Shown: positions 19,843-46,129 of the stretch, piece after piece
How positions within the stretch are numbered: position 1 is the first letter of the stretch
Layout of the letters: every line of letters begins with the position of its first letter
Source: Microbacterium saccharophilum
GTDB lineage: Bacteria > Actinomycetota > Actinomycetes > Actinomycetales > Microbacteriaceae
Length of the DNA stretch: 64,000 bases
NCBI RefSeq assembly: GCF_007992455.1
Contig: NZ_BKAH01000003.1
Location: 310,001 to 374,000 of the forward strand
Direction of reading: 5' to 3'
Program-made: the position numbers and the translations under genes
Notes under the pieces: generated by a model
Databases searched by the model: none
What the model was told of the DNA's origin: nothing
What the model saw: only the letters and a program-made list of their open reading frames with translations

Positions 19843-21408
19843 GTGGGAACCGCCACCGAACCTCTCGTTCACCTCACCTCGAACACGCTCGCCCGCATCC
19901 ACGTGGCCGGGGAGGTCGACGAGGTCTTCGCTTCGACGGAAGAGGGGCTGCGCGGCCGCATCGTCGAGTCGATCCGGCAGCTCGCGGCGTCGGCCGGTGA
20001 GCCCGTGACGGCGATCGTCGTCGACGGCGACGTGCGCTGGCCGCTGATCGTCCACCCCGACGGCGCCTTCATCGAGGCCACGGCCCTGGCCGAGCGCGAG
20101 AACGGCGAGCCGGCCCCGGCGCCCCACCCCGTGCGCACCGGCGAGGTGCCCGTCGTCGCGGATGCTGCGGACAGCGCGGATGCTGCGGACAGCGCGGATG
20201 CTGCGAGCAGCGCGGATGCTGCGGTCAGCGCCGCCGAGCCCGCCGCGGTCGCCGACGAGCCCGCACCCGTCGCGGAGCCGGCACCCGTTGCGGAGCCGGG
20301 GCCCGGCGCGGAGCCCGCACCCGTGGCGATGCAGCCGGAGCCCGTCGCGGAGCCCGCGCCGGTCTCCGTGGCGGCGCAGCCGGAGCCCGCTCCCGTCGGA
20401 CCCCTCCGCAGCGATCTGTCCCGCAGTGACCTCGCGCGTCGCGAGAGCGCGCACCGCGATCCCGCGCAGCGGGCGACGCCAACCGTCGAAGACCTGCTCA
20501 ACTCCCGCGCCGACCGCGCGAAGCCACGGGCCACCGAGGGCTGGCAGGGTGCCGTGCGCCGCGCCACCGGCGGGGCGATCTCGCCGCGCCCCGGAAAGGC
20601 CGAGCAGTCGCGACTGGATCGCGAGCGCATCGTGCAGCGGCGCCTCGACGCACCCCGCACGATCGTCGTGCTCAACCCCAAGGGCGGCGCGCACAAGACC
20701 ACCTCGACGCTGCTGCTGGCCGCGACCTTCGGCACGCAGCGCGGCGGCGCGACGCTCGCGTGGGACAACAACGAGACCCGGGGCACGCTCGGCTGGCGGG
20801 CGCAGAACGCTCCGCACCACCGCACCGCCGTCGACCTGCTCGAGGACCTCGACCGGTTCACGACACCCGACCAGTCCAGCCTCGCCGCCCTCGACACCTA
20901 CGTCCGCACGCAGGTCGATGCCCGGTTCGATGTGCTGGCCTCCGACGAGGATGCCGCGGCATCCTCCACCATCGACGCCGCCGCCTTCGACCGGTTGCAC
21001 GGGGTGCTCTCGCGCTACTACCGGCTGCTCATCATCGACACCGGCAACAACATGCGCGCGTCGAACTGGGTCGCCGCCGTCGCCGCGGCCGACCAGCTGG
21101 TGATCGTCTCGACCGTGCGCGAGGACACCGCCGCGAGCGCCGCGTGGCTGCTCGACGGGCTGCGCGAGAAGGGCTTCGACGACAAGATCGACGACGCCGT
21201 CACGATCCTCGCGGCCCCCTCGGCGAAGCCCGATCGCAAGCTCGCCGAGCGACTGGAGCGCCACTTCGCGCAGGTGACCTCCGCCGTCGTGCACGTGCCG
21301 TTCGACGCGGCCCTCGTCGACGGCGGACCGATCGACTTCGACGCCCTGTCGGGCGACACCCGCGACGCGTGGCTCACCGCCGCCGCCGCGATCGCCCAGC
21401 GGCTCTGA
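19843..21408 (+). CDS. ParA/MinD-like P-loop ATPase with disordered middle
   Basis: 521 aa from GTG 19843 (AAAGG upstream). Residues 1-~95 form a small N-terminal domain; ~100-190 are Ala/Pro/Glu-rich repeats; ~275-521 form the ATPase with deviant Walker A PKGGAHKTT near 283 and IIDTGNNM near 399. No parB or parS is nearby, so it is more likely an orphan MinD/ParA-type positioning ATPase than a plasmid partition protein. Its 3' 462 bp recur at 45668-46129, marking the left edge of the purine island. Confidence 0.82.
   Translation: MGTATEPLVHLTSNTLARIHVAGEVDEVFASTEEGLRGRIVESIRQLAASAGEPVTAIVVDGDVRWPLIVHPDGAFIEATALAERENGEPAPAPHPVRTGEVPVVADAADSADAADSADAASSADAAVSAAEPAAVADEPAPVAEPAPVAEPGPGAEPAPVAMQPEPVAEPAPVSVAAQPEPAPVGPLRSDLSRSDLARRESAHRDPAQRATPTVEDLLNSRADRAKPRATEGWQGAVRRATGGAISPRPGKAEQSRLDRERIVQRRLDAPRTIVVLNPKGGAHKTTSTLLLAATFGTQRGGATLAWDNNETRGTLGWRAQNAPHHRTAVDLLEDLDRFTTPDQSSLAALDTYVRTQVDARFDVLASDEDAAASSTIDAAAFDRLHGVLSRYYRLLIIDTGNNMRASNWVAAVAAADQLVIVSTVREDTAASAAWLLDGLREKGFDDKIDDAVTILAAPSAKPDRKLAERLERHFAQVTSAVVHVPFDAALVDGGPIDFDALSGDTRDAWLTAAAAIAQRL
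20158..20229 (+). repeat. 18-bp coding minisatellite in the parA-like gene
   Basis: Four consecutive copies of an 18-bp unit beginning GCGGATGCTGCG; the first two are identical and the others differ at 2 bases. They encode repeats of ADAADS/ADAASS. A second degenerate repeat of APVAEP codons follows. The stretch extends the disordered linker and is a likely site of length variation between strains. Confidence 0.85.
20947..21408 (+). repeat. Left copy of the 462-bp island-flanking direct repeat
   Basis: The 3' end of the full parA-like gene. It aligns without gaps to 45668-46129 with roughly 30 mismatches by eye, nearly all at third codon positions, plus different stop codons (TGA here, TAG there). 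Confidence 0.9.
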
Positions 21409-21420
21409 CCCGCGACCCGC

Positions 21421-21481
21421 GTTCATCCGTCCCTCGGGGTCGCTTCCGCGCACGCGTAGCGGTACGACGGGCCGGATGAAC
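21421..21481. repeat. REP-like palindromic element, left island edge
   Basis: 61 bp bounded by GTTCATCCG and its exact complement CGGATGAAC, with GTAGCGG inside. Two relatives lie at the right island edge (45451-45509 and 45536-45593). It sits 12 bp after the parA-like stop. Confidence 0.7.
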
Positions 21482-21515
21482 GGATGCGGGCCGAGCACCG
21501 CCCGCGCCCCGCGGC

Positions 21516-22709
21516 TCAGACCGCGCGCAACCCGCCGCCGAGGTCGACGGGGGTGCCGTCGATGTTGCCCACGATCCCGCGGATGATGCCAACACCGTCG
21601 GCGCCGCGCAGGCTCTCGTACCAGGCCTCGGTGGCGTCCACGTCGAACGCGTGCGTCTCGTAGCCGCGCTTGCGCGCCCGCAGCACGAGGTCGCCCGCGC
21701 GCTCCGCGCGCATCTGCTCGTACCGCTTCAGGGTGTCTTCGACGCTCACGGTGTTCGTCGCGAACGCGATGCCGAGCGCGAAGGCATCCTCGAGCGCCGA
21801 GCACGCGCCCTGCCCGATGTCGGGCGCCGTGTTGTGCGCCGCATCGCCGAGGATCGCGACGCGCCCTTTCGCCCACGTCGAAAACGGCGTGATGTCCCAG
21901 ATCTCGACGCGATTGAGGGATGCCTCGGGATCGATGGCATCCACCAGTGCCTGCACGCCGGGAGCCCACCCGTCGAACGCCGCACGCAGCGGTGCGACGC
22001 CGTCGGCGCGGTCGTACTCGAGCCCCGCCGGCTGCGGCACGTCGAACCAGAAGTAGAACCGGTCGCCCGCGACGGGCATGACCGCCGCGCGCTTGCCGTC
22101 GGCGACGTAGGTCGTCCACGCGGTGGCGCGGCCGACTGCGGCATCCGTCGGAATCAGCCCGTTGAAGTTGGTGTACCCGGAGTACTCGCGCACGATCTCG
22201 GGTGCGCCCTCGGGCTGCACGTAGTCGCGCGTGATCGAGCGAGCGCCGTCGGCGCCGATCAGCAGGTCGCCCGTGTCGGTCGTGCCGTCGGCGAACGTCA
22301 CCGTGACCTTCGTGCCGTCATCGGCGATGCCGACCACCTGGCGCCCGAGGTGGATGCGATCCATGCCGACGCGTTCCATCAGCAGCGCTTGCAAGTCGGC
22401 GCGGGCGACGGGGTAGGGCTTCTGCCCTGCCATCGCCGTGACCGGGGCGAGCGAGAAGTCGCACATCGTCTCACCGGTGTGTCCCTCGAGGTAGACCATG
22501 TCGGCCATGTCGCCGCCGAGGGCGGCGACTTCGGCGCCGACGCCGAGCCAGTTGAGCACCTTGACGCCGTTGGACCACAGCGACAGCGCCGCGCCGACCG
22601 GCTTGTTCTCACGCATCCGGTCGTAGATGACGACCTCGTGTCCGAGTCGTGCGAGCGCGATCCCCGCGCTCGTCCCGCCGATGCCCGCGCCCACGATGAT
22701 GACCTTCAC
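21516..22709 (-). CDS. hpxO: FAD-dependent urate hydroxylase
   Basis: 397 aa class A flavoprotein monooxygenase. Rossmann motif VGAGIGGTSAG at 6-16, the urate-hydroxylase hallmark PVGAALSLWSNGVKVLNWLG at ~37-56, and the second FAD motif VAILGDAAHNTAPDIGQG near 290. Converts urate to 5-hydroxyisourate using NAD(P)H and oxygen, taking the place of cofactor-free uricase. GTG 22709. Last gene after uraD-uraH, with its own upstream box at 22732-22768. Confidence 0.92.
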   Translation of the reverse strand: MKVIIVGAGIGGTSAGIALARLGHEVVIYDRMRENKPVGAALSLWSNGVKVLNWLGVGAEVAALGGDMADMVYLEGHTGETMCDFSLAPVTAMAGQKPYPVARADLQALLMERVGMDRIHLGRQVVGIADDGTKVTVTFADGTTDTGDLLIGADGARSITRDYVQPEGAPEIVREYSGYTNFNGLIPTDAAVGRATAWTTYVADGKRAAVMPVAGDRFYFWFDVPQPAGLEYDRADGVAPLRAAFDGWAPGVQALVDAIDPEASLNRVEIWDITPFSTWAKGRVAILGDAAHNTAPDIGQGACSALEDAFALGIAFATNTVSVEDTLKRYEQMRAERAGDLVLRARKRGYETHAFDVDATEAWYESLRGADGVGIIRGIVGNIDGTPVDLGGGLRAV

Positions 22710-22731
22710 ATCCGCAGGCTACGGAGGCTGT

Positions 22732-22772: not shown

Positions 22773-23093
22773 TCACGACCCGCGATACGTCGAGTACGCG
22801 AACGGGCTCAGCAGCAACGGCACGTGGTAGTGCGGACGGTCTGCGACGGTGAACGCGACCGTCACCGACGGGTAGAAGGTCTCGACTCCCTGCGCCGCGA
22901 AGTACGGCCTGGTGTCGAACCTCAGCGAGTAGTCGCCCGGCTCCAGCACGTCCGGACCGAGCGCGAGCCGCCCGTCGGCGTCGGTCTGTCCCGACGCGAC
23001 GGCGACGCCGTCGGGTCCCGCCAGGGTCACCGCGACGCCCGTCGCCGGCACACCCGCGGTCGCGTCGAGGATGTGGGTCGTCAGGTGGCTCAT
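22773..23093 (-). CDS. uraH: 5-Hydroxyisourate hydrolase
   Basis: 106 aa transthyretin-like protein. The family signatures are complete: HILDATAGVPA near the N-terminus (His7), RFDTRPYF in the middle and the C-terminal PFAYSTYRGS ending in the diagnostic YRGS. Hydrolyses 5-hydroxyisourate to OHCU, the step between HpxO and UraD. ATG 23093 follows the uraD stop by one base, so they are one operon. Confidence 0.95.
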   Translation of the reverse strand: MSHLTTHILDATAGVPATGVAVTLAGPDGVAVASGQTDADGRLALGPDVLEPGDYSLRFDTRPYFAAQGVETFYPSVTVAFTVADRPHYHVPLLLSPFAYSTYRGS

Positions 23094-23094
23094 G

Positions 23095-23592
23095 TCAGTC
23101 CTCCAGGCTTGAGCGCAGGCGCAGCAGCGCGATCTGGCGCAGCTGATCGCGCGCCTCGGCGGCCTCCGCGGCGTCGTCGTTGCCCAGGCGGCGGCGCACT
23201 TCGGCGAGCATCTCTTCGGCACTGCGGCCCGCGGCGCGGATCAGGAACACGCGCCCGAACCGGGCCTCGTAGTCGGCGTTGGCCTGTGCCATGGCATCCG
23301 TCGCCGACACGGATGCCGTCGCCATCGCCGCCTGCTCGCGGGTGCTCGCTGCGGCTTCCGCCCCCGACCCCGCGGGCTTCTGCCCGATGCGCGGGTGGTG
23401 AGCGAGCGCGGCATCCAGGTCGGCGTCGCTCCAGCGTCGGGCAAGCGCGTCGGCGCGCGCGGCAGCCTCGCCGACCGAGGCGTACGGACGTGCTGCGACG
23501 ACCGCGTCGACCCACGTGGGTACCGCCGCCCACACCGCGACCGTCGCCGTGGCCGTCTCGCGGTCGGTGGCGTTGAACTCGTCGAGTCTCAT
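23095..23592 (-). CDS. uraD: OHCU decarboxylase
   Basis: 165 aa; decarboxylates 2-oxo-4-hydroxy-4-carboxy-5-ureidoimidazoline to S-allantoin. Catalytic His66 in AHHPRIGQ, and the family motif FGRVFLIRAAGRSAEEML near 125-142. ATG 23592 has TACGGT six bases upstream (leaderless) and a clean GTTAC-n6-GAAAC box 22 bp upstream, so this heads the uraD-uraH(-hpxO) unit. Confidence 0.94.
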   Translation of the reverse strand: MRLDEFNATDRETATATVAVWAAVPTWVDAVVAARPYASVGEAAARADALARRWSDADLDAALAHHPRIGQKPAGSGAEAAASTREQAAMATASVSATDAMAQANADYEARFGRVFLIRAAGRSAEEMLAEVRRRLGNDDAAEAAEARDQLRQIALLRLRSSLED

Positions 23593-23614
23593 GCACCGAC
23601 CGTATCGCCGCGGC

Positions 23615-23630
23615 GTTTCGGCCCCGTAAC
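23615..23630 (-). promoter_or_regulatory. GlnR-type nitrogen box before uraD
   Basis: Minus strand GTTAC-n6-GAAAC with exact six-base spacing, matching the a-n6-b half-site pair of actinobacterial GlnR. The -10 (TACGGT) lies 10 bp downstream, so the box covers the -35 area, fitting an activator. Confidence 0.6.
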
Positions 23631-23780
23631 GTGCGCTCAGCGCCCCGGGTCGACGGTGTCGCGTCGGCTGTGGGCCTCGCGACCGCGATGGTGCGGATGG
23701 GGCTGAAGACGAGCAAGCGCAGCGAGTACGTGAGCCCGCCCCGCCTCGTCGCTGTGTGAGGCGCTGCCCCGCGGCCGGGG

Positions 23781-24569
23781 TCACGCGTGATCGCCTGCGC
23801 CGTGCACCAGGTCGGAGATCTCGCGCTTGTACGCGTTGAACGCGGGGGTCGTGACATCCCGCGGCTCGGGCAGGTCGATCGGCACGATGCGCGCGATGTG
23901 CCCGGGCACGCCGTGCGAGGCCCCACCGGTCATCACCACCACGCGGTCGGCGAGGAACACGGCCTCTTCGATCGAGTGCGTGACGAAGACGACGGTTGTG
24001 CGGGTCTCGAGGTGGATGCGCTTGAGCTCGGCCTGCAGGTCCGAGCGGGTCAGCGCATCCAGCGCGCCGAACGGCTCATCCATCAGCAGCACGCTCGGCT
24101 CGTTCGCGAGGACGCGGGCGATCGCGACCCGCTGCTGCATGCCGCCGGACAGCTCGCCCGGGTACCGGTCGGCGAAGCGGCTGAGCCCGACGGTCTCGGT
24201 GAACCGGTCCGCAAGCTCGCGCACACGTGCGCGCGGCAGGCGCCGCCGTTTCGGGCCGTAGGCGATGTTCTCGCGCACCGTGAGCCAGGGGAACAGCCCG
24301 TAGTCCTGGAAGACGACCCCGCGGTCCGGACCGGGGGCGGTCACGGGCCGCCCGCCGACGGTGACGCTGCCGCTCGTGGCGGGCTCGAATCCGGCGAGGA
24401 TGCGCAGCACGGTGCTCTTGCCGCAGCCGGATGCGCCGACGACGGCGATGAACTCGCCCGCCGCGATGTCGATGTCGACGTCGGCGACGGCCTGCACGCC
24501 GGCCCATTCCGGACCGTAGCGCTTGCCGAGATCCTGCAGGACGACGTCGGCGGTGGTCAGATCGGTCAT
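23781..24569 (-). CDS. ABC uptake ATPase (nitrate/taurine-type), purine island
   Basis: 262 aa. Walker A GASGCGKST near residue 45, signature LSGGMQQR near 145, Walker B VLLMDEP. The SsuB/TauB/ThiZ class of ATPases that works with NMT1-like binding proteins. Third gene of a binding protein-permease-ATPase operon; from context it probably imports a purine breakdown compound (urate, allantoin or a nucleobase), which is inference. Confidence 0.88.
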   Translation of the reverse strand: MTDLTTADVVLQDLGKRYGPEWAGVQAVADVDIDIAAGEFIAVVGASGCGKSTVLRILAGFEPATSGSVTVGGRPVTAPGPDRGVVFQDYGLFPWLTVRENIAYGPKRRRLPRARVRELADRFTETVGLSRFADRYPGELSGGMQQRVAIARVLANEPSVLLMDEPFGALDALTRSDLQAELKRIHLETRTTVVFVTHSIEEAVFLADRVVVMTGGASHGVPGHIARIVPIDLPEPRDVTTPAFNAYKREISDLVHGAGDHA

Positions 24570-24583
24570 GTGCTGTGCTCCCG

Positions 24584-25450
24584 TCACTTCACCAGGGGGC
24601 GCCCGCGCGTGAGCAGGCGGAAGACTCCGACGAGGATGCGGTCGGAGAGGAAGCCGGCGAGGCCGATCACGATCATGCCGACGACGATCATGTCGGTGCG
24701 CACGACGTCGCGGGCGAGGATGATCGCAGAGCCGAGGCCGACGTTGACGCCGACGCTCTCGCCGAGCACGAGCACGACCCAGGCGAGCCCGAGCCCGACG
24801 CGCATTCCGTTGATGACGGCTGCCGCCGAGGCGGGCACGACGATCTGGCCGAGGATCTCCCACCGCCTGGCGCCGAGCATCTGCCCGGCCTCGATGAGCC
24901 GACCCGGGACCTCTTTGGATCCGCTGATCGCGCCGAGCACGATCGGGAAGAACGACGAGAGGGCGATCAGGAAGATCGTCGCCTGGTCGCCCCAGCCGAT
25001 GAGGAGGCCGACGAGGGGCACCCACGCCGTCGCCGGAATCGGCCGGAACAGGTTGATGAACGGATCGAACATCGCGTCCATCTTGTAGTAGCGGCCCATC
25101 AGGATGCCGAGGGGGATGGCCAGCACCGACGCGATGAGGAAGCCGATGAGCACCCGCAGCGACGACGCCCCGAGGTTGACCCACAGGTCGCCGGAGAAGG
25201 CGTCGTCGTGGATGCCCCCGAATGCGTAGTCCCACAGCGACGCGACGACGTCGCCGGGGGCGGGCAGGTACCCCATCCGGATGCCGATGAGGGGAATCTC
25301 CCACGCCTGGTCGCGCCCGACCTGCCACAAGACGAGGAACAGGAACGGGATCGGGATCCCGAGGAGGATCCGCGTGAGGAGTGCGCGCTGATTGGGTCGT
25401 TGCGCGGGAGGGCGTCGGCGCACGGGTCGCGCCGTCGTCTGCGTGGCCAT
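24584..25450 (-). CDS. ABC uptake permease, purine island system 1
   Basis: 288 aa, about six to seven membrane helices, with the BPD-type EAA loop LIEAGQMLGARRWEILGQIV near 195-214. Start chosen at ATG 25450 (MATQTTARPV); an upstream in-frame start exists but would add 19 residues without a ribosome site. TauC/SsuC-like. Partner of the ATPase 14 bp downstream and the binding protein 53 bp upstream. Confidence 0.86.
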   Translation of the reverse strand: MATQTTARPVRRRPPAQRPNQRALLTRILLGIPIPFLFLVLWQVGRDQAWEIPLIGIRMGYLPAPGDVVASLWDYAFGGIHDDAFSGDLWVNLGASSLRVLIGFLIASVLAIPLGILMGRYYKMDAMFDPFINLFRPIPATAWVPLVGLLIGWGDQATIFLIALSSFFPIVLGAISGSKEVPGRLIEAGQMLGARRWEILGQIVVPASAAAVINGMRVGLGLAWVVLVLGESVGVNVGLGSAIILARDVVRTDMIVVGMIVIGLAGFLSDRILVGVFRLLTRGRPLVK

Positions 25451-25503
25451 GCGGCCGCCCTTCTGGCGTGCGGGGGAGGCCGCAGCCGCCCCCGCACGCG
25501 CGA

Positions 25504-26460
25504 TCACGAGGTGAAGGAGGTGTCCACGATGTCGTCGCCCGTGGGCGTCGTGGTGATGAGCCCGATCGAGGCCATCGCCTCGGCGAGGGCGGAGAGCTGT
25601 CCGACGTACTCGTCGGACAGATCCGAGCGCAGCCAGAAGTTCGCCAGCGCCGACGTGAACACGTCCTCGTCACCGCCGAACTCCTCGACCATGCCGGGCA
25701 GCCACTCCTCGATGTTGTCGGCCATGTAGGCGGTCGTCGCGGCGTGCGTGTCGACGACTTTCTGCACGAGCTCGGGGTTCTCCTCGATGAGCTTGCCGGT
25801 GGTGACCAGGCCGATGTTGACCTTGCCGATGGGCGTCGAGTACGGATCGACGACCTCGGTGCCGCCCGCGTTCTTCGCGATCGAGACGCCGATCTCGACG
25901 CCCATGAACGCGTCGATGTCGCCCGCGATGAACGCCGACGCCATCTCGGGCACGGGGATCACCGAGAGCTCGAAGTCCTCGGGGGTGAGGCCGGCCTCAT
26001 CGATCAGCAGGCGGAGGGCGACCTCCTGGGCCGAACCCTGGACGATGCCGATCTTCTTGCCGACGAGCTCGTCGAGGCTCGACTCGCCGTTGCCGATGAA
26101 GCCGGATCCGCCGTCGGCGGCGCTCGCGATGATCTTGAGGTCGCGGCCCTGCGCGATGGAGGAGATCGTCGGGGTGACACCCGAGATGGCGAAGTCGATC
26201 GACCCCGACACGAGCGCGTCGGACAGGGCGGGCGTCGTGTCGAGCGTGACGACCTCGAACTTCACACCGTCGACGGCGTGGTCGTCGTAGAGGAACGGCT
26301 GGTAGAAGTGCGGCTGGCCGCGCAGGGTGCCGATCTTGACGGTGACGGTCTCGGCGGCATCCGACGACGCGGGTGTCGTGTCACCCGAGCTGCAGGCGGA
26401 CAGGATGAGGACGGATGCCACGGCCAGCGCGGCGGCGATGCGAGGACGGAATCGTGCCAT
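25504..26460 (-). CDS. ABC substrate-binding lipoprotein, purine island system 1
   Basis: 318 aa. Signal peptide with lipobox LSAC (Cys22), then an NMT1/SsuA-type periplasmic-binding fold (VKIGTLRGQPHFYQPF opening, KKIGIVQGSAQEVALR hinge region). Binds the imported substrate outside the membrane. Divergent from the cupin regulator at 26652, which is the natural candidate to control it. Confidence 0.88.
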   Translation of the reverse strand: MARFRPRIAAALAVASVLILSACSSGDTTPASSDAAETVTVKIGTLRGQPHFYQPFLYDDHAVDGVKFEVVTLDTTPALSDALVSGSIDFAISGVTPTISSIAQGRDLKIIASAADGGSGFIGNGESSLDELVGKKIGIVQGSAQEVALRLLIDEAGLTPEDFELSVIPVPEMASAFIAGDIDAFMGVEIGVSIAKNAGGTEVVDPYSTPIGKVNIGLVTTGKLIEENPELVQKVVDTHAATTAYMADNIEEWLPGMVEEFGGDEDVFTSALANFWLRSDLSDEYVGQLSALAEAMASIGLITTTPTGDDIVDTSFTS

Positions 26461-26556
26461 GTGAAGGACTCCCGGGTTCGGTCCGCCGTCGACACGGCCG
26501 ACGGACGGTGCGAGGTACTGTGTGGCCCCAGTAAAGCGAGCGCGGTCGCGCTCGCC

Positions 26557-26583
26557 ATGAAGGCGGTGTAACGGTTGTGTTAA
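26557..26583. promoter_or_regulatory. Weak nitrogen-box-like half-sites between SBP1 and cupin regulator
   Basis: On the minus strand TTAAC-n6-GTTAC-n6-TTCAT keeps the 11-bp periodicity of GlnR half-sites but lacks a GAAAC. Weak alone; listed because stronger boxes occur at the other island promoters. Confidence 0.25.
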
Positions 26584-26651
26584 GTCATGACTGAACACGC
26601 GCGGAGTCGGTCGCGCATACGATGGGTCGCGCACGAGGACCGGAGGATGCC

Positions 26652-27272
26652 GTGGAAGAGAGCCCCCTGCCCGCACAGATCGGTGCGCGACTGCGTCGGC
26701 TGCGGACGGCCTCGGGCCGCTCCCTCGCGTCGGTCGCACAGCAGCTCGGCATCTCGTCGAGCGCGCTGTCGCAGATCGAGACGGGCACGATGCGTCCCTC
26801 GGTCAACCGGCTCGTCGAGCTCGTCGCCGTGCTGGGCGCTCCCGTGTCGGCGATCTTCGATGATCTCGATCTGTTCGCACCCGACCTCGATCACGCCGCA
26901 GGTGACGTCGCCGAGCCCGTCCCGGGGGTCCTCGTCACGCAACCGGGCGAGGCTGCCCCCGCACAGCTGGACCAGGGCGTCGTCTACCGGCGGCTGTCGC
27001 CGGCGCCTCTTCCCGGCGTGGACTTCTTCGAGTCGATCTACCCGCCTGGCTCCGCGTCGAGCGCCGACGGTGCGATGCTCGTGCATGACGGCCTCGAGTC
27101 GGGCTACGTGCGCTCGGGCGAGCTCACGTTCGAGTTCACGGAAGGCGCCGTGCGGCTCGGCGCAGGGGGGTCGCTCTCGTTCGCCGCGTCGCGGCCGCAC
27201 CGCGTCGTCAATCAGACGGCGGAGGTGGCCTCGGCGATCTGGCTGACGATCCTCCCGGCGTGCGGCGTCTGA
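26652..27272 (+). CDS. XRE-cupin transcriptional regulator
   Basis: 206 aa: helix-turn-helix at ~8-62 (SVAQQLGISSSALSQIETG) and a C-terminal cupin domain (~110-200) for small-molecule sensing. I choose GTG 26652 because CGGAGG precedes it; ATG 26622 would lack a ribosome site. Divergent from ABC system 1 and upstream of the allantoinase operon, so it probably senses a purine catabolite such as allantoin. Confidence 0.85.
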   Translation: MEESPLPAQIGARLRRLRTASGRSLASVAQQLGISSSALSQIETGTMRPSVNRLVELVAVLGAPVSAIFDDLDLFAPDLDHAAGDVAEPVPGVLVTQPGEAAPAQLDQGVVYRRLSPAPLPGVDFFESIYPPGSASSADGAMLVHDGLESGYVRSGELTFEFTEGAVRLGAGGSLSFAASRPHRVVNQTAEVASAIWLTILPACGV

Positions 27273-27295
27273 ACCCCGCGGCGTTTCACACGCCC

Positions 27296-27338
27296 GTTAC
27301 GTGGGGGTAATCGCTCGCGTCACGTTAAGCAATAGCTT
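27296..27338 (+). promoter_or_regulatory. Promoter of the allantoinase operon with nitrogen-box-like repeats
   Basis: TAGCTT at 27333-27338 is followed after 7 bp by the GTG start (leaderless). Upstream are GTTAC-n6-GTAAT-n7-GTCAC, half-site-like but imperfect. A GTTTC-n8-GTTAC pair also overlaps 27283-27300. Confidence 0.4.
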
Positions 27339-27345
27339 TAGAAGC

Positions 27346-36235: not shown

Positions 36236-36303
36236 GTGGCCCGCGGCGCGGCATCCGTCCGCCGCGCGGCTTCCAGCCCCGCCCCGCAGCATCCGCCCGC
36301 AGA

Positions 36304-36389
36304 ACCATGTCCCAAAAATCGCTGGTTCAGCGCGCCAAACCCAACCTCTTTTGGGACATGGTCTGCGATAAGTGGGACATGGTCTGCGA
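36304..36389. repeat. Inverted repeat with a repeated GGGACATGGTCTGCGA end, possible IS/MITE remnant
   Basis: Perfect 14-bp arms ACCATGTCCCAAAA (36304-36317) and TTTTGGGACATGGT (36349-36362) around a 31-bp, less GC-rich centre, then a second direct copy of GGGACATGGTCTGCGA (36353-36368 and 36374-36389). It lies between two convergent genes, so it might also terminate transcription, but the repeated end looks like IS481-type termini I recall from actinobacteria. Confidence 0.5.
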
Positions 36390-36400
36390 CCGTCAGGCGG

Positions 36401-37297: not shown

Positions 37298-38121
37298 CAG
37301 GCCGCCTTCCCAGCCACACCCGCGGCGCCTGCGACCCAGGGAGTGACGAGCTTGATCACGAGGCCGAACAGGCCGTACGCGGCGAGGGCGAACACGGCGC
37401 ACAGCAGGAACACCGACCACACGCCGGCCGAGTCGAGTTGCCCCTGCAGGCGGATGAGTGTGGGCCCGACTCCTGCGGTGATTGAGCCGAGGTATTCGCC
37501 CAGCACGGCGCCGAGGAACGCGGTCGGCACGGCGATCTGCAGGGCGTTGAGGATCGCGGGCAGCGCCGCGATCAGCCGCACCTTGCGCAACTGCGTCCAG
37601 GCGCCGCCGCCGTAGACGCGGACGACGTCGAGGGATGCCTTGTCGGCGGACTTGAAGCCGAGGATCGCGCCGACGACCGTCGTGAACACGCACACGAGCG
37701 CGGCGAGGAAGATCGCCGTCGCCGATGGGTCGCCGGGGTTCTTCGCGCCGCCGAGCACGACGACCGAGATGCCGCCGACCGCGACGACCGGCAGGCAGTA
37801 GGTGACGACCGCGATCTGGGTGATGACGGTCTCGGTGCGGGGGAAGACGAGCACGGATGTCGCGAGCACGAGTGCGATGCCGTTGCCCCACAGATACCCG
37901 ATCGCGGCGGCCGTGATCGTCGGCTGGAAAACGCTCCACGCGCCGGCGATGTTGCCCTGGATGAACAGCCATTCGAACACGGCGTACGGCGAGGGAACGG
38001 GCGTGAAGGTCGTGCCCTCCTGCTGCTGGAACGCGAGCAGCGAGAACAGCCACCACGCGAGGACCAGCCCGACGCCTCCGAGCGTCGCGGCGAGCCAGCC
38101 GGGTATGTGAGCCTTGGTCAC
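37297..38121 (-). CDS. ABC uptake permease A, purine island system 2
   Basis: 274 aa, six to seven membrane helices, EAA loop VVRVYGGGAWTQLRKVRLIA near 178-197. Start at GTG 38121, one base after the ATPase stop and with GGAGG inside the ATPase end; the longer in-frame start would overlap the ATPase by 30 bases. Similar to permease B, but clearly diverged. Confidence 0.84.
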   Translation of the reverse strand: MTKAHIPGWLAATLGGVGLVLAWWLFSLLAFQQQEGTTFTPVPSPYAVFEWLFIQGNIAGAWSVFQPTITAAAIGYLWGNGIALVLATSVLVFPRTETVITQIAVVTYCLPVVAVGGISVVVLGGAKNPGDPSATAIFLAALVCVFTTVVGAILGFKSADKASLDVVRVYGGGAWTQLRKVRLIAALPAILNALQIAVPTAFLGAVLGEYLGSITAGVGPTLIRLQGQLDSAGVWSVFLLCAVFALAAYGLFGLVIKLVTPWVAGAAGVAGKAA

Positions 38122-38122
38122 C

Positions 38123-38944
38123 TCACGCCTCCGCTTCGGCGTGCCCGTCCGCACCGAACAGCAGTTCGGATGCCCGGTCCACGAGCGCGTGGAACTCGGG
38201 CGTGCGCATCATCTCGGGGGTTCGTGGGCGCGGCAGGTCGACCTCGATGATCTCCTTGACCCGCCCGGGACGCGGCGACATGACGGCGACGCGGTCGGCG
38301 AGGAAGATGGCTTCGCTGATGCCGTGGGTGACCAGCAGCGTCGTCGCGGGCTTCTCGGTCCAGATGCGCAGCAACTCAAGGTTGAGGTTCTGGCGGGTCA
38401 TGTCGTCGAGCGCGCCGAACGGCTCGTCGAGAAGGAGCACAGAGGGCTTGAGCACGAGGGCGCGCGCGATCGAGGCGCGCTGGCGCATGCCGCCCGACAG
38501 CTGCGCGGGCTTCGCGTTCGCGAAATCACGCAGGCCCACGAGGTCGATGAGCTCGTCGACGTAGGCCTTGTCGACGGGGCGACCGGCGACCTCGAACGGC
38601 AGCTCGATGTTCTTGCGGATGCTGCGCCAGGGCAGCAGCGCGTGGTCTTGGAAGGCGATGCCCAGCTCGCTCTTCGCGCGAAGCTGGTCGGGCGTCTCGC
38701 CGTCGACGAGCGCCATGCCGTCGGACGGGTGGTCGAGAGCTGCGAGGATGCGCAGGATCGTGGATTTGCCGCACCCGGACGGCCCGAGCAGGGCCAGGAA
38801 TGACCCCTTCTCGGTGTGCAGGTCGGTGTTCTGCAGCGCCTGCAGCGACCTGCCCCCGCGCAAGGTGAACGACTTCGATACTCCGGAGATCTGGATGCCG
38901 GTGCCCGCGAGAGCACCGGCATCCAGGGTTTCTGCCATGGTCAT
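38123..38944 (-). CDS. ABC uptake ATPase, purine island system 2
   Basis: 273 aa. Walker [10 protein letters not shown] near 54-62, signature LSGGMRQR near 150, Walker B VLLLDEP. NitT/TauT-type ATPase. Four bases after the binding-protein stop, so the order is binding protein-ATPase-permease-permease in one operon headed by the nitrogen box at 40102-40140. Confidence 0.88.
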
Positions 38945-38948
38945 GTTG

Positions 38949-40052
38949 TTACGGGAGGTACGACTTCAGGTCGGGGTTCTCGGCGTAGATCTCGTCGATG
39001 ATCGTCGTGTCGAACAACTGGTCGGCCGTGAGGTCCCAGCCCGAGGCGGCGAGCGACGCGAGGGTCTGCGTCTTCAGGTCGTCCGAGATCGTGAACAGAC
39101 CGTTCGCCTCGGTCTCGTCCGTCGAGATCAGCTTCGCCTGGGCCTCGACGCCGGCCGCGACCTTGTCGGGGTCGAGGTCTCCGAAGGTGAGGTCACCGGC
39201 AGAGGCCGACTCGTTGTAGTACTTCGTCACGAGCGCGACGGTGTCGTCGATGGGCTGTGTGAAGGTGTCCGTCCAGCCCTTGATCTCGGCGATCAGGAAC
39301 GCCTTGATGAGGTCCTTGTTGTTCGCGAGGTAGTCGTCGGTCACGGCGTACGACTCCGCCACGTAGGGCAGGCCGTTCTCGGCGTAGGCGAGGTTCGTGA
39401 CCTCATAACCGGCCATCTCGACCGTGATGGCCTCATTGGTCAGGTATGCCATGAAGCCGTCGACGTCGCCGTTCATCAGCGGAGTCGGGTCGAAGTCGAC
39501 CGGGACGATCGTGAGCTGGTCCTCGGTGATGCCGTTGGCGGCGAGCAGGGCCTTGAAGACCGAGGCGTTCGAGTCCTGCACGCCGATCTTCTTGCCGATG
39601 AGGTCCTCGGGCGTCGCGATGTTCGCGCCGTCCTTCAGCGACAGGATCGTGAACGGGTTCTTCTGGAACGTCGTCGCGATGATCTTCAGCGGGGCATCCT
39701 GCTCGGCCACCGCAGCGCCGACCGAGGCAGCGTCGGTGAGGGCGAACTGGACCGAGCCGGAGAGCAGCTTCGCCACGCCGGTGTCGGGGCCGGCGACGCC
39801 GACGACGTTCGAGAAGCCGGCCTCGTCGTAGTAGCCGTTGTCATAGGCGTAGAACTCGCCGGCGAACTCCTCGTTCTTGATCCACGAGTACTGCACGCTG
39901 ATCTCGCCGAAGTCGGCGGAAGCGCCCGCGTCGCCCGAGGAGGACGCCGAGGGGGCGGCCGTCGACGAGCAGGCGGACAGGGCGAGCGCGGCGGCGGCCG
40001 CCAGCGCGAGGACGATTCCGCCGCGGCGGCGGATGGTGTGAGATGCGGGCAT
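38949..40052 (-). CDS. ABC substrate-binding lipoprotein, purine island system 2
   Basis: 367 aa. Signal peptide and lipobox LSAC (Cys28), Ser/Ala linker, then an NMT1/THI5-like domain ([23 protein letters not shown] split near 53-75; [14 protein letters not shown]). NMT1/THI5-like proteins bind pyrimidine- or purine-like heterocycles among other ligands, so a nucleobase or urate ligand fits its place beside xanthine dehydrogenase. AAGGAG precedes the ATG. Confidence 0.86.
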
Positions 40053-40097
40053 CGGGTCTCCTTGAGTGCTGTTGGTGCTCTCGTGACCCTAGGTCGC

Positions 40098-42866
40098 TTA
40101 CGTTTCGGGCGTCCGTTCGGTGGTGTTTCCGGGATGTGACGAGTGTGCGAGACGCCACACCCGGTCGCGGCTGAAGGGCTGCGCGAAGGGCCGGATGCCC
40201 AGGGCGCGCGCGATCGCGTTGCCGATCGCGGGTGCCACGGGGTTGTACGGCGACTCGCTCATCGACTTCGCGCCGAACGGGCCCAGGTCGTCGCTCGTGT
40301 CGGCGAAGTACACCTCGGTCTCGGGCACGTCGGCGAACTGCGGCACGCGATACGTGCGGAAGACGGGCGTCGTGACCTTGCCCTCGGGCGAGACCATGAC
40401 CTCTTCGTACAGCGCGCTGCCGATGCCCTGCGCGACGCCGCCCTCGATCTGGCCGCGGCACTGCGCGGGGTTCATGACGAACCCGGCATCCGCCGACTGG
40501 ATCGACTGCAGGATGCGCACCGTGCCGGTCGTCGGGTCGACGGCGACGCGCACGGCGTGCACGTTGAACGCGAGCGAGCGCTGCTCGCCGAGCTCGCTGC
40601 CGTCGGCGGTGAGCTCACCGTCGGCGCACAGCTCGGCGAAGCCGACGAGCCCGGCGATCGTCTCGACTCCCGTCGAGGTGAGCGAAGCGGATGCCGCGTC
40701 GGTGCCGGTCAGCGCCGCTGCGCGCGCGCGCATCCGCCGCGCGAGCGTCAGGCACGCGGCATGCAGGGCCTTGCCCGCGACCGTGATGCCGGCCGACGCG
40801 AACGCGCCGGTGTCGTGCGCGACGGCATCCGTGTCGGCGTGCCACAGCTCGATGCGGTCGAAGTCGGCGGCGAGATCGGTCGCCCCGATCTGACGCAGGA
40901 CCGTCGTCGTGCCGTTGCCGAACTCGGCCGTGCCGGCCCGCAGCAGGTACGTGCCGTCGGCGCGCAGGGTCGCGGTCGTGTGCGCGATGTGGCCGAACGG
41001 GGCCATCGTCGCGATCATCGCGGCCGCCATCCCCTCGCCGACGAGCCAGCCGTCGGGGGCGGTCGCGCCGTTGCCGCGCGCCAGGGCGTCCTGCGCGAGG
41101 TCGAGGCACTGGTCGAACCCGTAGCTGCCCCACACGAGGTCGTCGTGCCCGGGGTCGTCACCCGACCGGATCGCATTGATCCGCCGCAGGTCGAACGGGT
41201 CGATCCCGAGCCGCTCAGCGAGCATGTCCATCGCCGATTCGACGCCGAGCACAACCTGCCCGAGGCCGTACCCGCGGAACGCACCGGACGGGATGTTGTT
41301 CGTGTAGACGACCTCGGCGTCGACGCGCTTCAGCGGCACCCGGTAGATCGTCGTCGACTCGGCGAGCGAGTGGAACATGACGCCGCGCGAGTGGTTGCCG
41401 TAGGCGCCGGTGTCGCTCAGCAGGTCGATCTGCATCGCGGTGAGCGTGCCATCCGCATCCGCCCCGAGCGTCACCGTGACGCGCATCGGGTGCCGCACCG
41501 CGGCACGCAAGAACTCGTCGGTGCGGGTGAACTCGTACGCGACAGGGCGCCGGGTGCGCAGCACCGCGAGGGCGACGAGGTCTTCCGTGAAGATCTCCTG
41601 CTTGCCGCCGAAACCGCCGCCGAGCCTGGCCGCATGTACACGCACGCGGTCGCGCTCGAGGTCGAACAGTCGCGCGATCTCGTCGCGCGCAAGGAACGGT
41701 ACCTGCGTCGACGAGCGGATGACCAGGCGCCCCTCGTCGTCGAGCCAGCCGACCGAGCCGTGCGTCTCGAGCTGCGCGTGCGTCACGCGCGAGGTCTGCC
41801 ACGTGCCGGTGACGGTCACGGCGCTTGCGGCGAGGGCGGATGCCACGTCGGGCCCCGCGTGCACGCTCGCGATGACGTTGCGGTGCGCCTCGTCGACGCG
41901 GTCGTCCGGCGTGCGATCGGGGTGGATGAGCGGCGCGCCGGGCATCCGCGCCTCGTCGGGGTCGAAGACGGCCGGGAGCACGTCGTAGGTGATGTCGACG
42001 AGGCGGCACGCGGCATCCGCCGCTTCGGCCGTCTCGGCGACGACCGCGACGACGCGCTGGCCGATGTAGCGCACGACGTCGTCGAGCATGCGGGTGTCGT
42101 CGGGGTCGTCGGTGCGGTGCTCGTGGCGACCCGACGAGTAGCGCACCTGCGGGACGTCCTCGTGCGTGAAGACGGCGACGACGCCGGCAACGGCGCGCGC
42201 GGCGGTGGTGTCGATCGCGGTGACGCGCGCGTGCGCGTGCGGGCTCGCGACGACGCGCAGCACGAGCGCATCCGTCGCGGGGTGATCCGGCGGCAGATCG
42301 AACGTGAACGGCTCGCGGCCCTGCACGATGCGGCGCGCGGCCTCGGGGCGGGCGGAGGTGCCGACGTGCTGCAGGGCCGCCGTGGCCGGTGCCGTCGTCG
42401 CGGATTCGGCTCGCGGCCCCGTCTCGCGCACCTCGCCGAGCACCGACGCGCGGATCGCCTCGCGGATGGGGCGGTAGCCCGTGCAGCGGCAGAGGTTGCC
42501 CTTCATGCGGCGGTCGAGGTCGTCGAGATCATCGCCGCACAGCGTCGAGGCGGTCACGGTCATGCCGGGCGTGCAGAATCCGCACTGGAAGCCGAAGCCG
42601 TCGGCGATCGCCTCCTGCACGGGATGCAGCTCATCGGCGGGCGCGAGGCCCGCGGCGGTCGTGACGGCGTGGCCCTCGACGCGCACGGCGGGGATCAGGC
42701 ACGAGTGCACGGGCACCCCGTCGAGCAGCACCGAGCACGCGCCGCAGTCGCCCGCGTCGCAGCCCTTCTTCACCTCGGTGTGGCCCGTCTCGCGCAGGAG
42801 GGTCCGCAGGCACTGGCCCGCGCGTGGGTCGGCCTCGACCGGCTCGCCGTCGACGTCGAAGATCAT
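40098..42866 (-). CDS. Xanthine dehydrogenase, fused Fe-S and molybdenum subunits
   Basis: 922 aa. Residues 1-~150 bind two 2Fe-2S clusters (Cys36, 41, 44, 56 plant-type; Cys94, 97, 125, 127 in QCGFCTPG and NLCRCTGY). Residues ~170-910 are the molybdopterin-binding part ([31 protein letters not shown] with the active-site Glu). Oxidises hypoxanthine/xanthine to urate. Separate small and large subunits are more usual. ATG overlaps the FAD-subunit stop. Confidence 0.9.
40102..40140 (-). promoter_or_regulatory. GlnR-type box before ABC system 2
   Basis: Minus strand GTCAC-n6-GAAAC-n6-GAACG, then GAAAC after 7 bases: four half-sites, three in exact register. It overlaps the last codons of the xanthine dehydrogenase gene and lies 50 bp before the binding-protein start. 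One of the best boxes in the window. Confidence 0.6.
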
Positions 42867-43666
42867 GCGAGCTCCGCCCGGATGCGTGACGCGAGCTCGA
42901 CGCTGACCGCCCGCCGCCAGTCGGCGGCACCCAGGGGGTCGGTGTAATAGCCGGGAGCGGATGCCACGGCATCCGCCAGTTCCGTCTCGGTCGGCAGCAG
43001 CGCGAATCGCAGCACCGTCGGCGTCGCCGTGGCAGCGGTCACGGTGAAGACGGTCGTGCCGTCGGGGTCGACGCGGCCCGTCACGACAGCGCCGGAGCGG
43101 CCGTGCTCGGCGAGGGCGATCTTGCGCAGCAGGGCGCGCGAGGCGAGCGCGTGCGTGGGGATCTCAACGGCGCGCAGCACGTCGCCTCGGCCGAGGTTCG
43201 TGGTGCCGTTGCCCGTCACGAGATCGGCCACGGGCATCCGCCGTTCGTCGTCTTTTGTCCAGATGACAGCGACGGCGTCGAGTGCGACGCTCAGCGACAC
43301 CATCGCTCCCGCGGCGAACGCGCGGCAGATGTTGCCGCCCACGGTCGCGGTGTTCCAGATCTTGAACGATGCCAACAGGGCGTTCGCGGCCGCCGGCACG
43401 AGCTGCGCGGCGGGCCAGTGCGCGGGAGCTGTCGCGGCCCACGCGACGAGGTTCGCGATCGTGCACGTCGCTGCGACGCGCAGGCCCTCGGGGGTCTCCT
43501 CGAGGTCGGGCCAGGCGAGCCCGGTGAGATCGACGAGGCCGGTCGTGGCGGGCTGCGGCTCGCTCATGATCCAGGTGCCCCCGGCGAGGAGAGCCTCGCC
43601 GGGGGCAAGCTGCAGATCCTCCCGAGAACGGGCGACGCGGTACGCCTGCACCGACGTGATGTCCAT
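42863..43666 (-). CDS. Xanthine dehydrogenase FAD-binding subunit
   Basis: 267 aa CO-dehydrogenase flavoprotein type: [17 protein letters not shown] as FAD loop, [16 protein letters not shown] near 116-131, and a C-terminal CODH domain. Passes electrons from the Fe-S clusters to NAD+. ATG 43666 has GGAGAG upstream. First gene of the two-gene xdh operon. Confidence 0.9.
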
Positions 43667-43732
43667 GTTGCCCTGCTCTCCGGATCGCGGCCCTAGCTCG
43701 CTGTCGCGCCCGATCGAGTGAAGCAGGCCCCC

Positions 43733-43759
43733 GTTTCGCGGGTGTTTCATGGCCGCAAC
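43733..43759 (-). promoter_or_regulatory. GlnR-type box in the xdh / xdhC divergent promoter
   Basis: Minus strand GTTGC-n6-GAAAC-n6-GAAAC, three half-sites in perfect 11-bp register, 67 bp before the FAD-subunit start. The divergent xdhC start (TACCGT at 43781-43786, ATG 43794) lies 35 bp on the other side, so both could be controlled. Confidence 0.6.
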
Positions 43760-43793
43760 ACGGCCGCAATCCGGGGCGCATACCGTGAATGGC

Positions 43794-44897
43794 ATGCGTG
43801 AGATCCTGCCTGTCGCCGCCCGTTGGGCGGGTGCGGAGCAGGCGTTCGCGATCGCGACGGTTGTCGGCGTCGGCGGCAGTGCGCCGCGCGAGATCGGCGC
43901 GAGCATGGTCGTCTCGGCGAGCGGCGAGGTGTTCGGCACGGTGTCCGGCGGATGCGTCGAGGGCGCCGTCTACGAGCGCTGCCTCGAGGTACTGGCCGGT
44001 GCCGCACCTCACGTCGACCGGTTCGCGTACAGCGACGCCGACGCGTTCGCCGTCGGGCTGACATGCGGCGGGACGATCGATGTCCTCGTGCGGGCCGTGC
44101 CCCCGGGGAGTGCCGCCGCGGCCGATCTGCAGCTGCTCGCGGCGCGCGAGGCCGCCGCGATCCCGACGGGGTTCGCGCTCGTGACCGCGGGGCCGGAACT
44201 CGGCGTCGGGCGAGTCGTGTCGTCGGACGCCGCAGCGCCCGCGGCGGTGCCGGGTGTCGTCTCGCTGCGGGTCGGGGTTCCGGCGCGGTTGATCGTCGTC
44301 GGCGCGGTCGAGTTCGCCGTCGCGCTCGCGCGGCTGGGCGCCGCGATGGGGATGCGGGTGACCGTCGTCGATCCGCGCGAGGTGTTCGCGACCGAGGCCC
44401 GATTCCCGGGTGCCGAAGTCGTCGTCGACTGGCCCGACCGGTACCTCGCGGGGGAGCGGCTGGATGCCGGAACCGCCGTCTGCGTCTTGACGCACGACCC
44501 CAAGATCGATGTCCCCGCGCTGCGCGCGGCGCTCGCGTCGCCGGCCGGATACATCGGGGCGATGGGCAGTCGCCGGACCCACGACGACCGCATGCGGCGC
44601 CTCGGTGACGCCGAGGTGCCGCTGGCCGCGCGGATGCGCGTGCGCTCGCCGATCGGACTGGATCTGGGCGGACGCAGCCCCGAGGAGACGGCCCTGTCGA
44701 TCCTCGCGGAGATCGTCGCCGACCGGCACGGTGGCACGGGGGCCCGGTTGTCGGGGCTGTCCGGGCCTGTGCACGCTGCGGTCGGGCCGGGGGCGGGTTC
44801 GGGTTCTGATGCGGCTACCCAGGTTCCTGCCGCGGTGCCTTCGTCGGTGCCCTCGATCGAGTGCGCCTGGATGCCCGACGTCCCCGCCCGCTCATGA
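43794..44897 (+). CDS. XdhC-family molybdenum-cofactor insertion protein
   Basis: 367 aa. N-terminal XdhC/CoxI domain (VVGVGGSAPREIGASMVV, SGGCVEGAVYERC, LTCGGTIDVLV) and a Rossmann-like second domain (RLIVVGAVEFAVALARLGAAMG; YIGAMGSRRTHDDR). Needed to sulfurate and insert Moco into xanthine dehydrogenase. ATG 43794 is preferred because of TACCGT seven bases upstream. Ala/Ser-rich tail. Confidence 0.9.
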   Translation: MREILPVAARWAGAEQAFAIATVVGVGGSAPREIGASMVVSASGEVFGTVSGGCVEGAVYERCLEVLAGAAPHVDRFAYSDADAFAVGLTCGGTIDVLVRAVPPGSAAAADLQLLAAREAAAIPTGFALVTAGPELGVGRVVSSDAAAPAAVPGVVSLRVGVPARLIVVGAVEFAVALARLGAAMGMRVTVVDPREVFATEARFPGAEVVVDWPDRYLAGERLDAGTAVCVLTHDPKIDVPALRAALASPAGYIGAMGSRRTHDDRMRRLGDAEVPLAARMRVRSPIGLDLGGRSPEETALSILAEIVADRHGGTGARLSGLSGPVHAAVGPGAGSGSDAATQVPAAVPSSVPSIECAWMPDVPARS

Positions 44898-45487
44898 GCG
44901 TCGTCGGCATCGTGCTCGCCGCCGGCGCGGGCACGCGGTACGGCCACCCGAAGGCGCTCGCGACGGATGCCGACGGGCGAGGGTGGATCGCTTCTGCCGT
45001 CGAGACGCTGACGGATGCCGGATGCGCGCCCGTGCTCGTCGTGCTCGGCGCCCGACACGACGAGGCGACCGCGCTCGTCCCCGCCGCCGCGACGATCGTC
45101 GTCGCGGTGGACTGGTCCGACGGGTTGTCGGCCTCGGTGCGGGCGGGACTCGCCGTCGCGGCGGAGACCGCCGCGACGGCCGCACTCGTGGTCCCCGTGG
45201 ATGTGCCCGAGCTGCCGGCATCCGCGTGCATCCGCGTCTCGGCGGATGCATCCGCCGAGACGCTGCGGCAGGCGGCCTACGGCGGCGAGGTGGGCCACCC
45301 CGCGCTCATCGGGCGGGCGCACTGGAGCGCGCTCGCCGCCGAGCTGGCCGGCGACCGCGGCGCGGGCGGATACCTGCGCGCGCACGGTGCCGCCCTCGTC
45401 GAGTGCGGCGACCTGTGGCACGGCCGCGACGTCGACGCGCCGCCCCCGCGGCATCCGTCCCTTCCCGCCGCATTCGCGCGCCCGTAG
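44894..45487 (+). CDS. MobA/MocA-like nucleotidyltransferase for Moco
   Basis: 197 aa. NTP-transferase N-terminus VVGIVLAAGAGTRYGHPKAL, a VPVDVPELPA aspartate motif and GHPALIGRAHW, matching MocA/CoxI-linked enzymes that attach CMP or GMP to molybdopterin. Overlaps the xdhC stop (ATGA). Its last codons lie inside a REP-like element, so the natural C-terminus may have been changed. Confidence 0.85.
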   Translation: MSVVGIVLAAGAGTRYGHPKALATDADGRGWIASAVETLTDAGCAPVLVVLGARHDEATALVPAAATIVVAVDWSDGLSASVRAGLAVAAETAATAALVVPVDVPELPASACIRVSADASAETLRQAAYGGEVGHPALIGRAHWSALAAELAGDRGAGGYLRAHGAALVECGDLWHGRDVDAPPPRHPSLPAAFARP

Positions 45488-45509
45488 CGGCGCCAACGGC
45501 CGGATGAGC
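45451..45509. repeat. REP-like element B, right island edge
   Basis: Starts GCATCCGTCCC, contains CCCGTAGCGG and ends GGCCGGATGAGC, the same plan as 21421-21481. It overlaps the last 37 bases of the MobA-like gene. Confidence 0.7.
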
Positions 45510-45535
45510 CCCGCGCGCGGCGCGCCGACCCCGCG

Positions 45536-45593
45536 GCATCCGTCCCTTCCCGCCGCATCCGCGCGCCCATAGCGGCACGGGCGGCCGGATGAG
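45536..45593. repeat. REP-like element C, right island edge
   Basis: Second copy 85 bp after element B, near-identical over most of its length, with CCCATAGCGG instead of CCCGTAGCGG. Confidence 0.7.
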
Positions 45594-45647
45594 CCCGCCG
45601 CCGTGTAGCGCCACCACCAAGACCCGACGCATCCAGGAGGCGACGAT

Positions 45648-45669
45648 GATTCCCGAGATCGACTATTGA
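45648..45669 (+). pseudogene. Truncated start of a second DUF1761 gene
   Basis: CAGGAGG, then ATGATTCCCGAGATCGAC, then an immediate stop gives only MIPEIDY. The ribosome site and first codons match the intact DUF1761 gene at 47311 (MIPEINYW). The match stops where the parA fragment begins, so this is a recombination joint. Confidence 0.75.
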
Positions 45670-46129
45670 GGATGCCGCGGCATCCTCCACCGTCGACGCC
45701 GCCGCCTTCGACCGGTTGCACGGTGTGCTCTCGCGCTACTACCGTTTGCTGATCATCGACACCGGCAACAACATGCGCGCGTCGAACTGGGTGGCCGCGG
45801 TCGCGGCGGCCGACCAGCTCGTCATCGTCTCGACCGTGCGCGAGGACACCGCCGCGAGCGCCGCGTGGCTGCTCGACGGGCTGCGCGAGAAGGGCTTCGA
45901 CGCGAAGATCGACGACGCGGTCACGATCCTCGCCGCGCCGTCGGCGAAGCCCGACCGCAAGCTCGCCGAGCGCCTGGAGCGCCACTTCGCGCAGGTGACC
46001 TCCGCCGTGGTGCACGTGCCGTTCGACGCGGCGCTCGTCGACGGCGGGCCGATCGACTTCGATGCGCTGTCGGGAGACACCCGCGACGCGTGGCTGACCG
46101 CCGCCGCCGCCATTGCCGAGCGCCTGTAG
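45668..46129 (+). pseudogene. 3' fragment of a ParA-like ATPase gene (right island repeat)
   Basis: Ungapped counterpart of 20947-21408, keeping the reading frame for about 153 residues with only a few amino-acid differences (for example D to A and Q to E) but lacking the P-loop and N-terminal domains. A start at 45716 would give 137 aa without nucleotide-binding site. Mostly synonymous differences show it was once a selected gene from a different lineage. Confidence 0.85.

Follow-up and report, generated by a model that had tools for sequence, protein, structure and literature searches.

Probable exchange of a purine-catabolism island between Microbacterium species at the parA-purQ locus, with a truncated parA copy as the likely scar of an earlier one-sided insertion

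What kind of event leaves a purine-catabolism island enclosed between a parA-like gene and a second, headless copy of that gene's 3' end? We addressed this question in a stretch of 64,000 nt from Microbacterium saccharophilum (NZ_BKAH01000003.1), hereafter the window, to whose positions all coordinates refer. The full left copy of the gene, recognized as an open reading frame (ORF), encodes a MinD/ParA-family ATPase and occupies 19843..21408 (+ strand); no Pfam or NCBIfam model matched it, and some of its relatives are named MinD/ParA family ATP-binding protein, the nearest named ones being from Microbacterium. By sequence comparison, its 3' end (20947..21408, +) recurs to the right of the island as a tail that runs from codon 369 to the stop and has no 5' part (45668..46129, +; blastn and comparison of the joint with a second genome). 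The original prediction explained this layout as an import from a relative by homologous recombination through parA. We propose, with a probability of roughly 0.7, that the island between parA and purQ results from homologous exchange between species in the flanks, and that an earlier one-sided insertion likely left the parA tail as its scar.

The case for transfer rests more on the pattern of identity than on the presence or absence of the pathway. In a comparison set of one genome per species, the window shared a near-identical block of 26 kb with another species, probably also a Microbacterium (G137). Within the block 21312/21741 aligned positions were identical (98.0%), compared with 5973/7479 (79.9%) in the left flank and 7441/9401 (79.2%) in the right flank; a block of this kind between diverged flanks is what exchange by homologous flanks would leave. 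The left edge of near-identity lies at 21398..21420, with no mismatch from 21420 to 21881, and parA itself is 86% identical between the two genomes. On the right, near-identity extends through a D-2-hydroxyacid dehydrogenase-like gene (46331..47248, -; profile match), which is 99% identical to that of G137, and ends inside the intact DUF1761 gene beyond it (47311..47742, +; PF08570), where divergence resumes at 47431-47475 and is followed by short mosaic tracts to ~48.4 kb. The block of G137 is without the window's 36248-40146, a second ABC transporter segment. Exchange by homologous flanks would also favor a fixed chromosomal site, and among the 25 relatives in which we compared the layout around parA, purine genes followed parA in 16. 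The dehydrogenase followed directly in 8, an arrangement that the original prediction had said should exist, and neither was found in one (G011); the stretches of G265, G211, G048, G275, and G176 end early at contig ends. We regard transfer between species by homologous exchange at the shared flanks as strongly supported by this pattern.

The rpoB tree, which held 24 of 26 genomes (G330 was left out for want of a match and G332 because its matches were only partial), placed the two carriers apart. The window paired with G013 (99/96), with G011 close by and G008, G271, G097, and G211 in the same open group, and G137 grouped with G037 (98/95). Neither the urate hydroxylase HpxO (threshold E 1e-60) nor allantoinase (threshold E 1e-90) was found in G013, G008, G271, G097, or G037; thus, the closest rpoB relative of each carrier, G013 for the window and G037 for G137, is without both enzymes at these thresholds. 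Carriage by a plasmid was considered and rejected: a megablast of 21409-46129 against a plasmid collection returned 35 records, and among the 20 listed none covered 80% of the query, the best covering 4%. When proteins were searched with the MobA-like gene of the island, a single cluster proved nearly identical (P0121, 98% over 89% of the query), for which the genomic context is absent.

The two copies of the parA 3' end proved to be diverged alleles. A single blastn match of 468 columns at 93% connected 20947-21413 with 45668-46135, and the last 462 bp of parA differed from the tail at 32 positions, in agreement with the predicted 30 or so mostly synonymous differences. Synonymous codons accounted for 28 (the TGA/TAG stop contributing two), and the remaining 4 fell in 3 nonsynonymous codons. 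With the stop excluded, 26/30 differences were synonymous against a neutral expectation of 0.22-0.30 (P < 2e-10), which upholds the claim that the right copy diverged as a working gene before it was cut. Polarized by the majority of five near relatives, 7 synonymous changes were assigned to the left copy, 11 synonymous and 1 nonsynonymous change to the tail, and 13 to neither. Because the changes lie on both branches and are mostly synonymous, most of the divergence would have arisen while both copies were parts of working genes. The 462-bp repeat had only these two strong matches in its own genome, with 3 others short and weak (40/591 candidates scored). Each of the 35 other genomes in which parA had a match at E 1e-60 showed a single copy; 295 genomes were searched and two candidate places scored in each, so that a weak or third copy could escape.

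In the parA tree, the left copy and the tail formed one clade (98/90), apart from the parA genes of 25 other species, G137 included. Clustering of the copies had been named beforehand as a result that would speak against import, and it is borne out in part: the copies share a clade, but 7% mostly synonymous divergence separates them. Topology tests, for which the groups were chosen with the rpoB and parA trees already known, rejected grouping with G013, G008, G271, and G097 for the left copy (p 0.0005), the tail (p 0.0036), and both together (p 0.007). Grouping of the tail with G037 and G320 was rejected as well (p 0.0026), and grouping with G137 was not (p 0.11). At its 5' end, the window's parA matches that of G137 at 92-93% identity and those of the other genomes compared at <=85%. 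To judge from these comparisons, parA as a whole probably entered the window's species line from outside, and an unsampled group related to G137 is the probable source of both alleles. Such an origin fits the dehydrogenase tree, a quick tree with one support value, in which the window and G137 stood together (100) next to G037 and G320 (89). Relatives of parA as close as 97% identity came from a protein search, again with the genomic context absent.

The joint at the head of the tail suggests how the right end was made. A DUF1761 gene reduced to its first 23 bases (MIPEIDY; 45646..45668, +; comparison of gene starts), reading ATGATTCCCGAGATCGACTATTG from 45646, runs directly into parA codon 369, and a single base, 45668, is common to both parents. 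On its left side, the joint resembles an island's right end with DUF1761 next to it; to the right, it resembles an island-free chromosome with the parA end, the dehydrogenase, and DUF1761. The original prediction had recognized the purine-degradation content; however, it took parA from 20947, downstream of its start at 19843, and missed the DUF1761 start at 45646. The same DUF1761/parA joint is present in G137, where a 405-bp deletion between CGCCGCCGCC repeats has cut the tail to its two ends. The DUF1761 fragment of G137 equals the DUF1761 starts of G008, G169, G188, and G358 over 23/23 bases, and the window's carries one change. Where both genomes retain bases of the tail, two changes are private to the window, including the nonsynonymous change assigned to the tail. 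When 366 genomes of the genus were searched, with the same limit of two candidate places each, a match running through the joint was found only in the window's genome and G137. Viral carriage was rejected, with 0 exact matches to the joint pattern in viral contigs, and so was an assembly artefact, G137 showing the same joint in a 3.41-Mb contig. Since the joint is shared, the tail would predate the parting of the two blocks and would have travelled inside the block.

This result bears on the possibility that the tail marks an import into the window's own genome line, with a relative's DNA recombining through parA. The tail does bound the island on the right, and the two copies are closest to each other; however, the same joint in a 98% identical block means that it existed before the blocks parted, and neither parA copy groups with the window's rpoB relatives. 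Such an import remains tenable only with a joint formed in the window's line and later handed on to that of G137, and we consider it unlikely. Thus, of the predicted import by homologous recombination, interspecies exchange at shared flanks stands, and the tail as its mark does not; nor does homologous recombination in parA explain the right end, which in the older event looks illegitimate.

If parA, island, and DUF1761 had been duplicated in tandem within a single lineage and the second island copy then lost, the order DUF1761 to parA seen at the joint would result, as at a tandem breakpoint, and the clustering of the copies would agree. The DUF1761 fragment itself disfavors an in-place duplication. 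Also against it, most of the 32 largely synonymous differences, lying on both branches, cannot postdate the cutting of the tail, and further deletions would be needed, with the dehydrogenase still to be accounted for between the tail and DUF1761. A later replacement of one parA copy with a foreign allele could rescue this scenario, which we find improbable. An integrase-type genomic island using the parA 3' end as attachment site is hardly credible: a 3' gene end is duplicated at both island ends, but, as the original prediction had noted, there is neither an integrase (none listed in NCBIfam profile scans of 29 ORFs, 22 of them within 19843-46129) nor a tRNA within the window, the would-be attachment repeats differ at 32/462 sites, the repeat on the right abuts a truncated DUF1761 start, and one parA copy appeared in each of the 35 further genomes that matched, with two candidate places scored per genome and with the island present at this site in 16 relatives.

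We therefore return to one-sided insertion followed by exchange, for which we propose the following history. In an unsampled recipient lineage, the chromosome would have carried parA, the dehydrogenase, DUF1761, and purQ in this order, and incoming DNA with parA, the purine island, and DUF1761 would have recombined homologously on the left, in or near parA. On the right, a broken end inside the DUF1761 start would have been end-joined to codon 369 of the resident parA. In the product, an intact parA would stand left of the island and the severed 3' end of the resident parA right of it, so that the two parA ends would represent donor and recipient alleles. The composite with its scar would then have reached both the window's species and that of G137; that this step involved transfer follows from the identity pattern, and its route and direction are our inference. 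Lastly, G137 would have lost most of its tail (405 bp) and the second ABC transporter segment, a state that is observed directly and whose place in the order is conjectural. Besides the 23-base DUF1761 start, the single shared base, and the synonymous divergence, one-sided insertion is favored by what follows each copy: the dehydrogenase after the tail, an order known from 8/25 relatives, and the hairpin element described below after the left copy, an order known from G332. Ku, which was detected in 10/10 genomes tested and in 1/14 control genomes, permits end-joining.

Several points weigh against this history. The left homologous anchor is deduced, the left end being an intact parA within which no crossover was located. 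The left copy and the tail are sisters (98/90), and the parA tree names no separate donor and recipient; with both copies in one clade, the two alleles would trace to a single unsampled lineage group, which goes against a clean split between donor and recipient. Both copies also fall outside the group of G013, G008, G271, and G097, so that the trees do not assign the older event to the line of the window itself. The MobA-like protein beside the joint is <=71% identical in the genomes with the donor-type layout. Absence of the pathway around the carriers is patchy: G011, a neighbor of the window and G013 in the rpoB tree, encodes an allantoinase elsewhere and has no HpxO, and HpxO is present in G211 from the window's open group and in G018, G048, G176, and G320 from the wider group of G137. 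A ComEC-type domain was found in 6/6 genomes but also in 10/14 controls, Escherichia coli included, and says little on DNA uptake.

Other relatives show which layouts were available. The right end of the island varies: DUF1761 follows directly in G080, G188, and G293, the donor-type layout, to which G332 also belongs except for an insert; the dehydrogenase and then DUF1761 follow in G169, G230, G358, and G361; and other right ends also occur. In G332 (L210), the stretch between the MobA-like gene and DUF1761 contains two short ORFs similar by eye to an MNT/HEPN toxin-antitoxin pair; this putative pair occupies the gap where the window has the scar. G358 is ~95% identical to the window's island up to ~40.1 kb and 74-80% thereafter. 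G332 is 94-95% identical up to ~43-44 kb, then likewise 74-80%, and is without most of the first ABC transporter segment (~24.5-27.3 kb). The hpxO and amidase-gene trees united the window, G137, G358, and G332 (100/99 and 100/100, respectively), and the xdhA tree kept the window, G137, and G332 together and moved G358 to G169; part of these island-gene trees were quick trees with one support value. By contrast, rpoB placed G358 with G169 and the window and G137 elsewhere, G332 being outside that tree.

A REP-like hairpin repeat of ~60 bp, located by repeat search, provides a further link to G332. One copy directly follows parA (21416..21484, +), and two more precede the joint (45443..45597, +; 45443-45512 and 45528-45597). 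The window's genome and G137 had three matches each (E up to 0.05), all in the block, and G332 carried the repeat at 12 places (15 rows, of which 3 read one palindrome a second time), including the same order of a parA gene and then the element. In seven other genomes searched, G013 and G211 gave short weak matches only and five gave none; a text search with a tighter pattern added one place in G137, where the interior of the element differs. The left copy alone folded better than shuffles (z -2.40, against -0.14 and -0.05 for the other two). We infer from the repeat that at least part of the block may have had a G332-like source.

The genes between the parA copies are predicted, from their families only, to serve the conversion of xanthine to urate, allantoin, and beyond. 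HpxO, hydroxyisourate hydrolase, and allantoinase scored above curated cut-offs, and the allantoate amidohydrolase-like, xanthine dehydrogenase-like, and XdhC-like genes scored below equivalog cut-offs; family matches further indicated an OHCU decarboxylase, two ABC transporters, and one regulator. From left to right, the island begins with hpxO, a predicted FAD-dependent urate hydroxylase gene (21516..22709, -; NF033623, 551 bits, cut-off 500), the reading frames for hydroxyisourate hydrolase (22773-23222) and OHCU decarboxylase (23095-23784), together at 22773..23784 (-; TIGR02962, PF09349), and a first ABC transporter with ATPase, permease, and substrate-binding genes, whose extent is approximate (23785..26739, -; profile matches). 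These are followed by an HTH regulator and allantoinase AllB (26622..28734, +; TIGR03178, 521 bits, cut-off 358) and, by profile matches, an AtzH-like/amidase fusion, a class V aminotransferase, and an allantoate amidohydrolase-like gene (29923..34093, +), then a LOG-family gene (-) and an amidohydrolase (+) at 34157..36235. The second ABC transporter segment (36248..40146), identified by profile matches and the comparison with G137, is at the same place in 11/16 island-bearing relatives, and no clear repeat was seen by eye at the corresponding G137 joint. The xanthine dehydrogenase-like genes (-) and the XdhC-like and MobA-like maturation genes (+), named by their best family matches, follow at 40098..45487. 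Within the fusion, an AtzH-like (HpxZ-like) domain and an amidase are joined in a single gene (29923-31497). The island is rearranged in G320 (L035, recorded as M. paulum), where xanthine dehydrogenase-like, maturation, and ABC genes precede parA and do not follow it. A record labelled Stenotrophomonas maltophilia P13 (L059) contains a Microbacterium-type parA with purine genes and is likely mislabelled or contaminated, and L094 (Planococcus) and L096 (Croceicoccus) look similarly doubtful. Outside the island, imperfect direct repeats, 78-83% identical, were noted at 6588-6928.

Taken together, we think it likely that a whole purine pathway circulates among Microbacterium species at one fixed site without a mobility gene of its own, and that the end-joining scar is a heritable tag by which transfers can be traced and ordered. 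Two successive modes of transfer would be readable at a single locus: a rare one-sided insertion that adds DNA, and homologous exchange that then spreads the product, here between species whose flanks differ by ~20%. This would offer a plausible route for a complete catabolic pathway into species without it, needing no integrases, plasmids, or phages, with the scar as a marker to follow the island. Searches of the literature on Microbacterium and uric acid (among the matches listed), purine degradation, and interspecies homologous recombination or genomic islands yielded nothing on this island, from which we make no claim that nothing is in print; PMC5526665, in its passages on the subject, deals with another island, one that serves iron acquisition in bacteria of cheese, Microbacterium among them.

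The events proposed here are of known kinds and unusually legible at this locus. Replacement-type flexible genomic islands occupy the same site in several species and are exchanged by homologous recombination in their flanks. The present island resembles them in its shared site, in having no mobility genes found, and in its apparent exchange through conserved flanks; it differs in that a conserved predicted purine pathway takes the place of variable surface genes and in that the site is filled or empty depending on the species. In the type VI secretion system (T6SS) clusters of Vibrio cholerae, the relevant passages of PMC5361080 describe inserted modules that leave the 3' part of the old gene downstream, propose an event similar to homology-facilitated illegitimate recombination (HFIR), and suggest that finished arrays move by ordinary homologous recombination. 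As far as that account goes, the orphan immunity genes and displaced effector 3' ends are like the parA tail in being a displaced 3' end downstream of an inserted module, and differ in that a protective immunity gene is kept there, whereas here a headless parA tail with no evident use remains. HFIR itself, with one homologous and one illegitimate end, is described for the transformable bacteria Streptococcus pneumoniae, Acinetobacter baylyi, and Pseudomonas stutzeri in the part of PMC3240628 concerned. Its illegitimate end has a counterpart in the fusion of the DUF1761 start to parA codon 369 with one shared base, and its two alleles in the 32 differences, 28 in synonymous codons and spread over both branches, yet the copies are sisters in the tree and their source lineages are not told apart. 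The insertion that we propose would thus resemble HFIR in combining one homologous end with one illegitimate end, and would differ in being deduced from a natural joint and in having added a segment of >20 kb that was later carried, as part of a block, by two species.

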